NCBI RefSeq assembly: GCF_020097815.1
Contig: NZ_CP083663.1
Span: forward strand, 1,984,001 to 2,048,000
Direction: 5' to 3'
Length of the DNA stretch: 64,000 nt
Source of the DNA: Haloprofundus salinisoli
Lineage (GTDB): Archaea > Halobacteriota > Halobacteria > Halobacteriales > Haloferacaceae
Positions 37,748-42,528 of this stretch are shown here, piece by piece. The notes beneath the pieces were generated by a model. That model made no database searches, was not told the DNA's origin, and saw nothing but the letters and a program-made list of their open reading frames with translations. Position 1 is the first letter of the stretch, and each line of letters starts with the position of its first letter. The position numbers and the translations under genes were made by a program.

Positions 37748-38890
37748 ATGGACATTACTGACATAGCACTCCAGGACTTCGTGGAGCTGGAGGCCGACAC
37801 CCGACTCGGGAAGGTCCGGTCTGCGTTCGAGCGCGAGAACCCGAAGGGTATCATCATCACCGACGACGGCGATTACGTCGGGGTGGTCGGCGAGAAGCAG
37901 TTGATTCAGTCGCACATCGAAGACAACACGAAGGCCGCCGCGTTGATGCGCTCCGCGCCGCGCATCGACCGTCACGAGGATGTCCGCGAAGCGTCGCGGA
38001 TGCTCATCGAGGGTGACACCCAGATCGCTCCCGTCTACGAGGGCGAGAAGCTCTGGGGGATCATCACGAGCGACGCGATTCTCGAAGCCGTCCACGAGAA
38101 CTTGGACGCGCTCACCGTCGAGCAGATCTACACGGAGGACGTGGTGACGATTCGCGAGGAGGACCGCAACGGGCAGGCGATAAATCGCCTCCGCGAGAAC
38201 GGTATCTCTCGACTTCCCGTCCTCAACGAGAACGGCAATCTCACCGGCGTGCTGACGACGCACGACATCACCGAATTCGTCGTCCGTAACGAGGCCCGTC
38301 AGGGCACCGGGGACCGAAGCGGCGACCTCGAACGAATGCTCGACCTGCCGGTGTACGACCTGATGACGAGTCCGGTGTTCACGACGAACCCCGGTGAGTC
38401 GGTCAGGGATGCCGTCTCGCGGATGTTCGAGAACGACATCGCCGGACTGGTCGTCACGCCGTCGGACAGCGACTCGGAAGTGCTCGGCGTCCTCACGAAG
38501 ACGGACGTGCTCCGCGCGCTCACCTACACCGAGCAGGAACAGATGGACGTTCAGATCACGAACGTCGATCTGCTCGGCACCGTGACGCGGACGGAACTCG
38601 TCGAGAGCCTCACGCAGGTTGTCGACAAGTACCAGGAGATGCAGGTCCACCACGCGCACCTTCGCTTCCACGAACACAAGGAGAAACTCCGTGGCACGCC
38701 GCTCATCCAGTCGCAGATTAGACTCCGGACGAGCCACGGACAGGTCGCGGGCTCCGGGGAAGGCTACGGCGCAGAGCACGCCTTCCGCGTCGCGCTCGAC
38801 AAACTCGAACGCAACGTCCTGGAGATGAAGGGGATCAACGCCGACGAGCAGTACCGCGGGCAGTTGCTGCGGAAACTCGGCGAACTATAA
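37748..38890 (+). CDS. CBS-domain protein with C-terminal basic domain
   Basis: A 380-residue protein with four CBS domains (about residues 1-60, 65-120, 125-185 and 205-265), which usually sense adenine nucleotides or S-adenosyl ligands. The final 100 residues (VHHAHLRFHEHKEKL, IRLRTSHGQVAGSG, GAEHAFRVALDKLERNVLEM) form a separate beta-alpha domain that resembles the HPF/RaiA (S30AE) ribosome-binding fold in pattern. CBS plus such a domain suggests a ribosome-hibernation or dimerisation factor in archaea; this is inference. The gene is followed directly by a hairpin-rich 3' element. Confidence 0.8.
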   Translation: MDITDIALQDFVELEADTRLGKVRSAFERENPKGIIITDDGDYVGVVGEKQLIQSHIEDNTKAAALMRSAPRIDRHEDVREASRMLIEGDTQIAPVYEGEKLWGIITSDAILEAVHENLDALTVEQIYTEDVVTIREEDRNGQAINRLRENGISRLPVLNENGNLTGVLTTHDITEFVVRNEARQGTGDRSGDLERMLDLPVYDLMTSPVFTTNPGESVRDAVSRMFENDIAGLVVTPSDSDSEVLGVLTKTDVLRALTYTEQEQMDVQITNVDLLGTVTRTELVESLTQVVDKYQEMQVHHAHLRFHEHKEKLRGTPLIQSQIRLRTSHGQVAGSGEGYGAEHAFRVALDKLERNVLEMKGINADEQYRGQLLRKLGEL

Positions 38891-39515: not shown

Positions 39516-40214
39516 TCAGAACTCCTCGGTCGTCTCTAATCCGTTGCCGGTAATCCGGAACGTCACACTCTCTCCGGCGGCTTTCGCGCGATGTTTCTCG
39601 AGCGTCGCTCGGCGGTTACCGCCGCGGAAGCGGTCGAGGCGGACGACGACGCCGGTCCAGTGTTCGAGCGTGTGGCCGCCGAGCGCCCGCGCTCTCTCCG
39701 TGTCGGGGTCGGTGAACACCTGGTTCGTCAGGACGACGGCGATGTCGTGTTTCCGCGCCAAAGACAGCAGATGCGTCACCTGCCGGGCGACTCGGCGGAG
39801 CGACTCGCCGCCTTCTCCCTCCAGGCTGCGTTCGAGACGGTAGAAGCCCGTGGCGCTGTCGAGGACGACGAGGTCGGCCCTGTCGGCGAACTCCTCGGCG
39901 TCGCGCACCGCTTGTTCCTGTTCGGCGAAGTCGTACGCCTCGGTGACGATGACGCGGGAGGCGACGTCCTCGAACGCTTGCTCGTCGTCGACGCGAGCCT
40001 CGACGAATTGGCGGAAGCGGTCGATGGAGAGCCCCTCGGTGTCGATGTAGACGACGGTTCCGCCCGCGGCGGCGACGTCGACGGCGGCCGACAGCGCGAC
40101 GTTCGTCTTCCCCGCCGCCGGTGCGCCGTACACCTGCGTCACGGTCCCGCGTTCGAGACCGCCCCCGAGCAGGTCGTCGAGCGGTGCGCACCCCGTGGAG
40201 AGTGTTTCGGTCAC
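39516..40214 (-). CDS. radB: DNA repair and recombination protein RadB
   Basis: RadB is the archaeal RecA-family paralogue that helps RadA load in homologous recombination. It is 232 residues, the usual size. Walker A GAPAAGKT is at residues 30-37 and Walker B LVVLDSATGF near residue 118; the N-terminal DNA-binding domain of RadA is absent, as expected. The start is GTG 40214 (MTETLSTGCAPLDDLLGGG); a TATA-like box TCTTTTTCC about 27 bases upstream supports it and rules out the much longer open frame. It is divergent from a YqgF/RuvC-like gene. Confidence 0.94.
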   Translation of the reverse strand: MTETLSTGCAPLDDLLGGGLERGTVTQVYGAPAAGKTNVALSAAVDVAAAGGTVVYIDTEGLSIDRFRQFVEARVDDEQAFEDVASRVIVTEAYDFAEQEQAVRDAEEFADRADLVVLDSATGFYRLERSLEGEGGESLRRVARQVTHLLSLARKHDIAVVLTNQVFTDPDTERARALGGHTLEHWTGVVVRLDRFRGGNRRATLEKHRAKAAGESVTFRITGNGLETTEEF

Positions 40215-40392
40215 AGTCGGCGTTGGCGTGGTCCGCGGAAAAAGACCCCGGTCCGCCCCCGAGACGCGCGATCTGCGGCGTCCGGCGGGTGAATGACGGT
40301 GCCCCCGACCGAGACGTACCGCGACAGAGATACCGTCTCGACGCGGGCGATTCGAACTGCACTTTTTACCTTCCCGGCGTCCAACGAAACCC

Positions 40393-41166
40393 GTGATAGT
40401 CGTCGCGACGGAGGACTTCGAGCTGTACCACGAGGCGGTCTCCGCGCTGCGCGAGCGCGGCGTGACGTTCACGACGGTCCGCCCGGGCGAGAAGCTCCCG
40501 GACACCACGGACGTCCTCGTCACGGCCACCGACGACGACGTCGTCGACCTGCCGGCGGAGATGACCCACATCCGAACGACCGCCGACGACGTTCGGAAAG
40601 CCGTCGAAGAGGCGCTCACCATCCTCCGCGGCGGCGACCGGCGGACGGTCATCGGCGTCGACCCCGGGACGCGGCCCGGCATCGCCGTTCTCTCCGGTGA
40701 GATGGTCGTCGCCGCGTTTCAGGTCCCGCTCTCGGAGGCGGTCGACATGATTCGCCGCGAGGCCGACGATACGGTCGATCCGCTCGTCCGCGTCGGCGAC
40801 GGGGCGCGCCTCCAGAGCGCCCAGCTCGTCAACGACCTCGAAGGCGTGCCCGTCGAACTCGTCGACGAGACGGGGACGACGCCGTATCTCGGTTCAGGCG
40901 CTCGCGGTATGGGCGACGTGCTCGCGGCGGTCAACATCGCGCATTTGGAGGGCGAACGCGTGGATTCGCGGGAGATCGAGCCGACCGCCGGCGAGATACA
41001 GGTCATCAAAGACCGCTCTCGGGAACGGTCCGCCGAGAACCGAAGCATCGACGAGTCGCTGGCACGCCGCGTCGCCACCGGCGAGTTGAGTATCGACGAG
41101 GCGTTGGAAGAGCACCGAAACGGCGGGGCCGACGACACCGAGTCAGCCGACGGCGACGAGAACTGA
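40393..41166 (+). CDS. Predicted RNase H-fold (YqgF/RuvC-like) nuclease
   Basis: A 257-residue protein, GTG start, TATA-like box CTTTTTACC about 28 bases upstream. Residues 1-80 form a small alpha/beta domain. Residues 86-185 follow the YqgF/RuvC pattern: VIGVDPGTRPGIAV with Asp90, VPVELVDETGTT with Asp158/Glu159 (compare the YqgF DExxTT), and GMGDVLAAVNIA with Asp175. Three acidic residues at these places match an RNase H-type two-metal site. The C-terminal tail is charged and helical. It is divergent from radB, which suggests a recombination or repair role, such as junction processing; the activity is inference. Confidence 0.75.
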   Translation: MIVVATEDFELYHEAVSALRERGVTFTTVRPGEKLPDTTDVLVTATDDDVVDLPAEMTHIRTTADDVRKAVEEALTILRGGDRRTVIGVDPGTRPGIAVLSGEMVVAAFQVPLSEAVDMIRREADDTVDPLVRVGDGARLQSAQLVNDLEGVPVELVDETGTTPYLGSGARGMGDVLAAVNIAHLEGERVDSREIEPTAGEIQVIKDRSRERSAENRSIDESLARRVATGELSIDEALEEHRNGGADDTESADGDEN

Positions 41167-42528
41167 CTACGTCTCGGACCGTTCGGATACCGCGTTCTCC
41201 GCGCGCCGCATCACCTCGCGAACCGCGAGCCCCGTCTCCTGCGCCACCGCCATCGCGTCGTCGAACTCGGCGCTGCGGTCGTAGACGACGCCGTCGGCGT
41301 CGCTGGCGACCTTCACGCTCACCTCGTACTCTCCGCCGTCGAGGTCGAGCGTCGCCGTCTCGAAGGACCGAGAAGCGACCCAGCGGTGACCCGCGCCGTG
41401 TTCGCGGACGCCGAGCGTCCCCGTCTCCTCGGCGAGCTTTCGGGCGACGCGTTCGGCGTCGGCCGGACGGACGATGACTTTCACGAGGTGTCCGGGCCGG
41501 GATTTCTTCATCGTCGCCGGGAGGATGGAGACATCGCGTGCGCCCGCGTCGGCGAGCGTCTCCTGTAATCCACCGAGGACCTCCGGCGGCGCGTCGTCGA
41601 GATTCGTCTCCAACACGGTGATCTCCTCGCGGGTGAGCCGACCGCCGCCGTCGCCGACAAGCGCACGGAGCACGTTCGGGTGGTCAGGGAAGTCGTAGCC
41701 GCCCGCACCGTAGCCCGATTCCCGAACCCGAACCGGCGGGAGGTGGTCGACGCCCTCGGCGAAGTGGGCGAGAGTCGCCGCGCCCGTCGGCGTCAGCAGT
41801 TCGGCCTCGACGGGGCCGCCCCTCAACGACCAGTCGGCGCGTTCGGCGATTTCGACCACCGCGGGCGTCGGTACGGGGTAGATACCGTGGCTCATCGACG
41901 CCTCGCCCCCGCCGGTCGAAAGCGGCGTCGTGACCACGCGTTCGACGCCTAACTCGTCTATCAACAGGCACGCGCCGACGATGTCGGCGATCGCATCGTC
42001 GGCACCGACTTCGTGGAAATGCGTCTCGTCGAGGTCGGTGTCGTGGACCGCCGCCTCCGCCTCGCCGAGGATGCGGAAGACCGCCAACGCGTCGGTCTCC
42101 ACGTCGGTCGGCAGGTCCATCGACTCCACGATGTCGACGACCTCGGTGTACTTTCGGTGCGGTCCCGAGCCCTCGGCGTGGGTGTGGCCGTGCTCGGGAT
42201 GGTCGTCGTGTTCGTGATGCCCGTGGTGCCCGTCGCTGTGGTCGTGGTGGTGATGGTGGTCGCCGTCGTCATCGTGTTCGTGGTGTCGACGACTGCCCCT
42301 GTCGTGCGAGTCGCCGCTGTGGTCGCCTCCAGCCTCGTCGTCGACGAGCAACACGTCGACCGTCGTCGAACTGATACCGTTTTTCACCGTGTTCCCCACT
42401 TCGTATCGAACGTCGAGCGTCTCTTCGACCGGCGACAGCGCACCGGGGTCCGCCCCGGCCGCCAGCAACGCGGCGAGAATCATATCGCCGCTCGCACCCA
42501 TCCGTCCGTCGAACGCGAGTGTGTCCAT
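41167..42528 (-). CDS. larC: Nickel-pincer cofactor chelatase LarC
   Basis: LarC inserts nickel into the pincer cofactor of lactate racemase-type enzymes. The protein is 453 residues and starts DTLAFDGRMGASGDMILAALL, the family N-terminus; later come ETHFHEVGADDAIADIVG, STGGGEASMSHGIYPVPTPA and LETNLDDAPPEVLGG. Between residues about 65 and 125 is a long His/Asp-rich insertion that would store or deliver nickel. No LarA or LarB gene is in the window. It is convergent with the YqgF-like gene, with one base between the stop codons. Confidence 0.93.
   Translation of the reverse strand: MDTLAFDGRMGASGDMILAALLAAGADPGALSPVEETLDVRYEVGNTVKNGISSTTVDVLLVDDEAGGDHSGDSHDRGSRRHHEHDDDGDHHHHHDHSDGHHGHHEHDDHPEHGHTHAEGSGPHRKYTEVVDIVESMDLPTDVETDALAVFRILGEAEAAVHDTDLDETHFHEVGADDAIADIVGACLLIDELGVERVVTTPLSTGGGEASMSHGIYPVPTPAVVEIAERADWSLRGGPVEAELLTPTGAATLAHFAEGVDHLPPVRVRESGYGAGGYDFPDHPNVLRALVGDGGGRLTREEITVLETNLDDAPPEVLGGLQETLADAGARDVSILPATMKKSRPGHLVKVIVRPADAERVARKLAEETGTLGVREHGAGHRWVASRSFETATLDLDGGEYEVSVKVASDADGVVYDRSAEFDDAMAVAQETGLAVREVMRRAENAVSERSET

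Follow-up and report, generated by a model that had tools for sequence, protein, structure and literature searches.

Does a nuclease of the archaeal recombination and repair machinery lie, so far unrecognised, beside the recombination mediator gene radB? The question is raised by a locus of Haloprofundus salinisoli within a stretch of 64,000 nucleotides (contig NZ_CP083663.1, positions 1,984,001 to 2,048,000; hereafter the window), in which an earlier note, made from the letters alone, had read a YqgF/RuvC-like nuclease gene divergent from radB. The most likely answer is that this gene encodes a nuclease that depends on metal and serves recombination and repair.

radB and the predicted-nuclease gene

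In the window the predicted-nuclease gene on the plus strand and radB on the minus strand stand head-to-head, with their starts 178 bp apart (Table 1). In an NCBIfam search the minus-strand gene scored 412.8 bits against PRK09361 (cut-off 278), which identifies it as RadB, and its start is likely to be the GTG at 40214; a 388-aa radB reading frame extending up to 40682 was rejected as a mechanical over-extension. The divergent pair first read here has thus been borne out in its coordinates, in the PRK09361 match and by its recurrence, with radB divergently upstream of the nuclease gene, in 77 of the 80 named haloarchaeal loci. The GTG start of the nuclease gene is aligned in nearly all haloarchaeal homologues, and an upstream comparison recovers a T-rich stretch like CTTTTTAC at the same place in many of them. 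The spacing of this TATA-like element before the GTG suggests that the gene may be transcribed without a leader. Two further genes flank the pair. Convergent with the nuclease gene, and immediately next to it, is a gene for LarC, the nickel-pincer cofactor protein (41167-42528); around residues 70-120 of this protein lies a long histidine-rich insert that may store metal. Before radB lies a gene for a CBS-domain protein (37748-38890), which is found near radB in many haloarchaeal loci and is missing there in others.

Table 1. Features of the radB-nuclease locus, in window positions
Feature	Position	Strand	Evidence or remark
radB, recombination mediator RadB	39516..40214	-	PRK09361 and TIGR02237 (NCBIfam equivalogs) both exceed their cut-offs; synteny
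Intergenic region, 178 bp, separating the divergent starts	40215..40392	.	sequence
TATA-like CTTTTTAC	40362-40369		~24-31 bp 5' of the nuclease-gene GTG; sequence
YqgF/Tex-type RNase H-fold protein, 257 aa, GTG start	40393..41166	+	ORF, motifs, profiles, predicted structure, conservation
N-terminal Rossmann-like domain, residues 1-82	40393..40638	+	predicted structure, conservation
RNase H-like core, residues 83-190	40639..40962	+	predicted structure and profile evidence
C-terminal helical segment, conserved, residues 191-244	40963..41124	+	model and alignment
Asp90, end of beta-1, DPG motif (DPGTRPG, residues 90-96)	40660-40662	+	138/138 homologues
Asp158-Glu159, end of beta-5, VDE motif (VDETGTTP, residues 157-164)	40864-40869	+	138/138 homologues
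Asp175, start of core C-terminal helix (GDVLAA, residues 174-179)	40915-40917	+	138/138 homologues

Predicted fold and family kinship

An AlphaFold2 model from a 27-sequence alignment (mean pLDDT 88.5) divides the protein into three parts: 1) an N-terminal domain (residues 1-82) with a beta-alpha-beta-beta-beta-alpha order; 2) a core with strands at 85-90, 96-101, 104-110, 131-135 and 154-157 and helices at 113-125, 139-148 and 173-183; and 3) three helices beyond the core, in a C-terminal segment whose Pro197, Glu201 and Arg210 are invariant in 138 distinct homologues. The structure prediction yields an RNase H fold for residues 82-190, which VIA-align superposes on several known members at Z 9-12, in the order Tex (Z 11.8), DrYqgF from Deinococcus (11.6), IS110-type recombinases, RuvX (10.9), Spt6 and RuvC. 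A Foldseek search of the whole model against the PDB gave no match at E <= 0.001, its top rows being other actin/RNase H-like folds; in a viral structure library two matches passed 0.001 and many of the next ones were RuvC-like resolvases. The structural case is made by the VIA-align re-alignment, the viral library and the profile evidence taken together.

The profile-profile scores were 43.3 over 117 columns for Tex, 42.5 over 40 for DUF460, 37.4 over 83 for YqgF and 28.7 over 41 for RuvC; none of 30 column-shuffled profiles scored above 21.5. The Tex, YqgF and RuvC profiles were built from small samples of sequences on large plasmids or chromids. Kinship with both YqgF and RuvC emerges clear of the controls. 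Moreover, 36 of 39 family members matched phrog_1770 (Holliday junction resolvase) with a best E of 3.1e-6, the window's own protein doing so at 4.2e-4 over residues 84-202. A sequence search of PDB chains with the nuclease protein returned nothing credible, and ankyrin/DARPin repeats among the PDB profile matches were discarded, the aligned part being only the stretch LVDETGTTP. Exact peptide patterns recovered no relative from viral contigs, nor did the anti-phage library contain a match.

The N-terminal domain retains its confidence when modelled alone (pLDDT 90.6), and within it Thr6 and Phe9 are invariant and Asp8 is present in 132 of the 138 homologues. It resembles many small Rossmann-like domains, among them PurE, receivers and PTS IIB (Z 8-9). 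We predict it to be Rossmann-like, a common arrangement that points to no function or specific relative; the earlier description of this region as having no known match therefore holds for specific relatives and fails for the predicted fold. Two candidate identities were dismissed. A long profile alignment had hinted at the region that precedes the nuclease domain of DUF460, and this vanished when the N-domain was tested alone; a Pfam match to Csa3_N in six members (best E 0.0043) was judged a general Rossmann resemblance.

Among the known relatives, the YqgF-like domain of Tex (COG2183; PDB 3bzk, 2oce) is the best structural match (rmsd 3.3 over 104 residues), tied with YqgF, and gives the longest profile alignment. 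The stretch after beta-4 is also similar (IGNGTASRE / VGDGARLQ). However, Tex is large and composed of several domains, among them helix-hairpin-helix and S1, neither of which Pfam detects in the archaeal protein, which has 257 residues and a different N-domain. YqgF/RuvX (PF03652, COG0816; PDB 7w89, 7ess, 1nu0) shares the fold (DrYqgF: rmsd 2.5, 26% identity) and the placement of the acids on beta-1, at the end of beta-5 and in the C-terminal helix. It is a single domain of about 140 aa, whereas the archaeal protein has the additional N-domain and C-terminal helices and a DPG motif in place of the D(F/Y)G of the YqgF sequences compared here; in a Pfam search none of the 39 members matched PF03652 up to E 5. 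RuvC (PF02075), finally, has the same superfamily fold (Z ~9-10) and is the weakest profile match.

The earlier note had also argued from the premise that archaea lack RuvC. This is wrong: DUF460/COG2433 (PF04312) is a known archaeal RuvC-like family (PMC3985635), and the same genome carries a copy as a separate gene at G000:C1:1271388. What the predicted nuclease has in common with DUF460 is the GIDPG strand region. Pfam matches 34 of 39 members to DUF460 weakly, with 16.8 bits for the window's protein and 21.6 bits for the best matches in the small-genome family f28, against a cut-off of 28; and DUF460 proteins are typically about 400-700 aa long and near-universal (40/41). The nuclease family is distinct from DUF460/COG2433. 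The DUF460 protein of this genome opens with VVFGVDIQSGD..., a segment likewise RNase H-like by eye, and may therefore hold two such domains.

The predicted active site

Both the motifs and the acids first read from the sequence are exactly at the places claimed for them. None of the 138 distinct homologues, some of them only about 35% identical, has another residue at Asp90, Asp158, Glu159 or Asp175. Since, in addition, the GTG starts align, we conclude that the predicted-nuclease gene is not a chance reading frame. At Asp136, which follows beta-4 directly and takes the place of the RuvC catalytic glutamate, the homologues have D in 114, H in 13, N in 9, R in 1 and S in 1. As this acid varies, the predicted active site corresponds to the YqgF/Tex type and not to the RuvC type. 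Of the reading as a YqgF/RuvC-like nuclease, then, the kinship, the predicted fold and the acids have survived, but not the RuvC layout. The note had named two outcomes that would refute it, a predicted structure lacking the RNase H fold and variation at the acidic positions; neither was observed.

DrYqgF is an RNase that depends on Mn and has no junction activity; replacing D22, E106 or D122 by alanine impairs or blocks its cleavage of RNA (PMC9601230), and the invariant acids of the haloarchaeal protein lie at the positions needed for that activity. Membership in the YqgF/Tex branch of the RNase H fold, with an intact predicted catalytic site, is well supported and very probable. In such a site Asp90, Asp158/Glu159 and Asp175 would bind divalent metal and cleave by hydrolysis a phosphodiester bond of a recombination or replication intermediate that is branched or contains RNA, while binding of the substrate or a partner would fall to the Rossmann-like N-domain together with the C-terminal helices, which are conserved. 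The protein could instead be an inactive nucleic-acid-binding scaffold that aids transcription or recombination proteins, like the YqgF domain of Tex/Spt6. The leading place of Tex in the structural and profile comparisons speaks for this, and Tex itself lacks the third carboxylate and is not known to have nuclease activity (PMC3985635). The archaeal family, however, unlike Tex, keeps that carboxylate as Asp175 in every sequence and is without S1 and helix-hairpin-helix domains; as four invariant acids are hard to explain without catalysis, we regard a scaffold as quite improbable.

Phyletic spread and gene neighbourhood

The nuclease gene was found in 28 of 40 relatives and, in a sample of the phylum, in 66 of 295 genomes at E <= 0.001, including four marginal matches inside DUF460-sized reading frames. 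It ranges over most haloarchaea, Methanocella-like methanogens and several small-genome lineages, the families outside haloarchaea being f18, f23, f25, f28, f31 and f40; two f25 contigs probably belong to Methanocella paludicola and M. arvoryzae. In a tree the sequences fall together by family, as vertical descent would give. In Natronorubrum bangense the same radB-nuclease locus appears to be present twice, on the chromosome and on an 828-kb plasmid, and the two match tables are identical (L057, L058); this is either a duplication or an assembly artefact.

The association with radB is close and very old, as the comparison across haloarchaea and beyond indicates. The median start-to-start gap is 136 bp, and 60 of the 77 haloarchaeal pairs are separated by less than 450 bp. 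At about 40% protein identity radB still adjoins the nuclease gene in f18, f23, f25 and f31, and about two thirds of the distant loci have it divergent; this retention across distant lineages, with the exception of f28 and f40, is what a repair partner of RadB would display. In f28 (L151:7136-8152; also L148, L154, L158) the gene lies just downstream of one for a FEN1/XPG flap endonuclease. This second DNA-repair neighbour counts for a role in repair; against it count the nearby larC and cdc48, the presence of radB without the nuclease gene and the unpaired state of f28 and f40. On balance, the gene neighbourhood makes a role in recombination or repair fairly probable.

Of the 295 genomes, 294 have a RadB-like match, which in 282 exceeds the curated cut-off, and Halorubrum-like g13 and other lineages retain radB while missing the nuclease gene; RadB therefore does not need the nuclease. 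In G006, G034 and G095 (L161, L162, L165) radB is directly beside cdc48, with the nuclease gene and larC both missing there, and G150 has radB-larC-cdc48 without the nuclease gene. An old cluster of radB, larC and cdc48 has thus either acquired the gene or lost it. We do not claim a functional tie to larC from the co-loss in the compact genomes G006 and G034, as G016 keeps larC elsewhere.

These neighbourhoods also bear on whether the protein is an RNase of RNA processing or turnover, like the YqgF of E. coli or Deinococcus, with its radB pairing a regulatory or historical accident. The acid layout is that of the RNase DrYqgF, EcYqgF processes 16S rRNA ends (PMC9601230), and neither larC nor cdc48 is a DNA-repair gene. 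Yet, at about 40% identity, larC and cdc48 have moved away at L144 and L153 while the pairing with radB stays, the f28 copy is beside fen1, and the gene is missing in many haloarchaea, unlike an essential rRNA maturase. We hence find such an RNase rather unlikely.

A further possibility is a Holliday-junction resolvase that would act on RadA-made four-way junctions alongside Hjc and Hef. The match to phage junction resolvases, the structural likeness to RuvX and RuvC, the pairing with a recombination gene and the reported junction cutting by MtYqgF and HpYqgF (PMC9601230) are consistent with it. On the other hand, the RuvC-type beta-4 glutamate is absent, YqgF proteins are split between junction and RNA cleavage, several haloarchaeal lineages are without the gene, and Hjc is present in 40 of 40 relatives, so that there is no vacancy to fill; for the same reason we rejected the idea of an Hjc replacement. 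We judge this specific role unlikely. As it would be a special case of the explanation we prefer, the confidences placed in the two overlap.

Functional implications

The explanation we prefer, and consider reasonably probable, is a stand-alone enzyme, a nuclease from the YqgF/Tex branch, whose probable place is the RadA/RadB pathway of recombination and repair. More tentatively, it could represent a new, dedicated family of RadB-partner nucleases that cut recombination or fork intermediates independently of Hjc and Hef.

In Haloferax volcanii RadB is HVO_2383 (PMC7776575) and Cdc48a is HVO_2380 (PMC10470531). Given these numbers and the gene order in Haloferax loci, the nuclease orthologue should be HVO_2382, expected between LarC/Cdc48a and RadB; we infer this identity from synteny and locus numbers. 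In the openly searchable literature HVO_2382 is named in a single paper, as uncharacterised and within a neighbourhood analysis, and a review of H. volcanii replication and repair leaves the nuclease gene unmentioned. As H. volcanii is genetically tractable, the role of the gene can be checked there directly.

That the nuclease gene and radB have remained neighbours for so long in evolution suggests that archaeal DNA repair has a component still to be recognised. A conserved predicted nuclease paired with radB in haloarchaea and Methanocella-like methanogens is a candidate for an unrecognised step of archaeal recombination. With it the archaeal use of the YqgF/Tex branch, whose members are split between DNA and RNA substrates, would become visible, and a dedicated RadB-partner nuclease, if that is what it is, would be a missing enzyme of archaeal homologous recombination.
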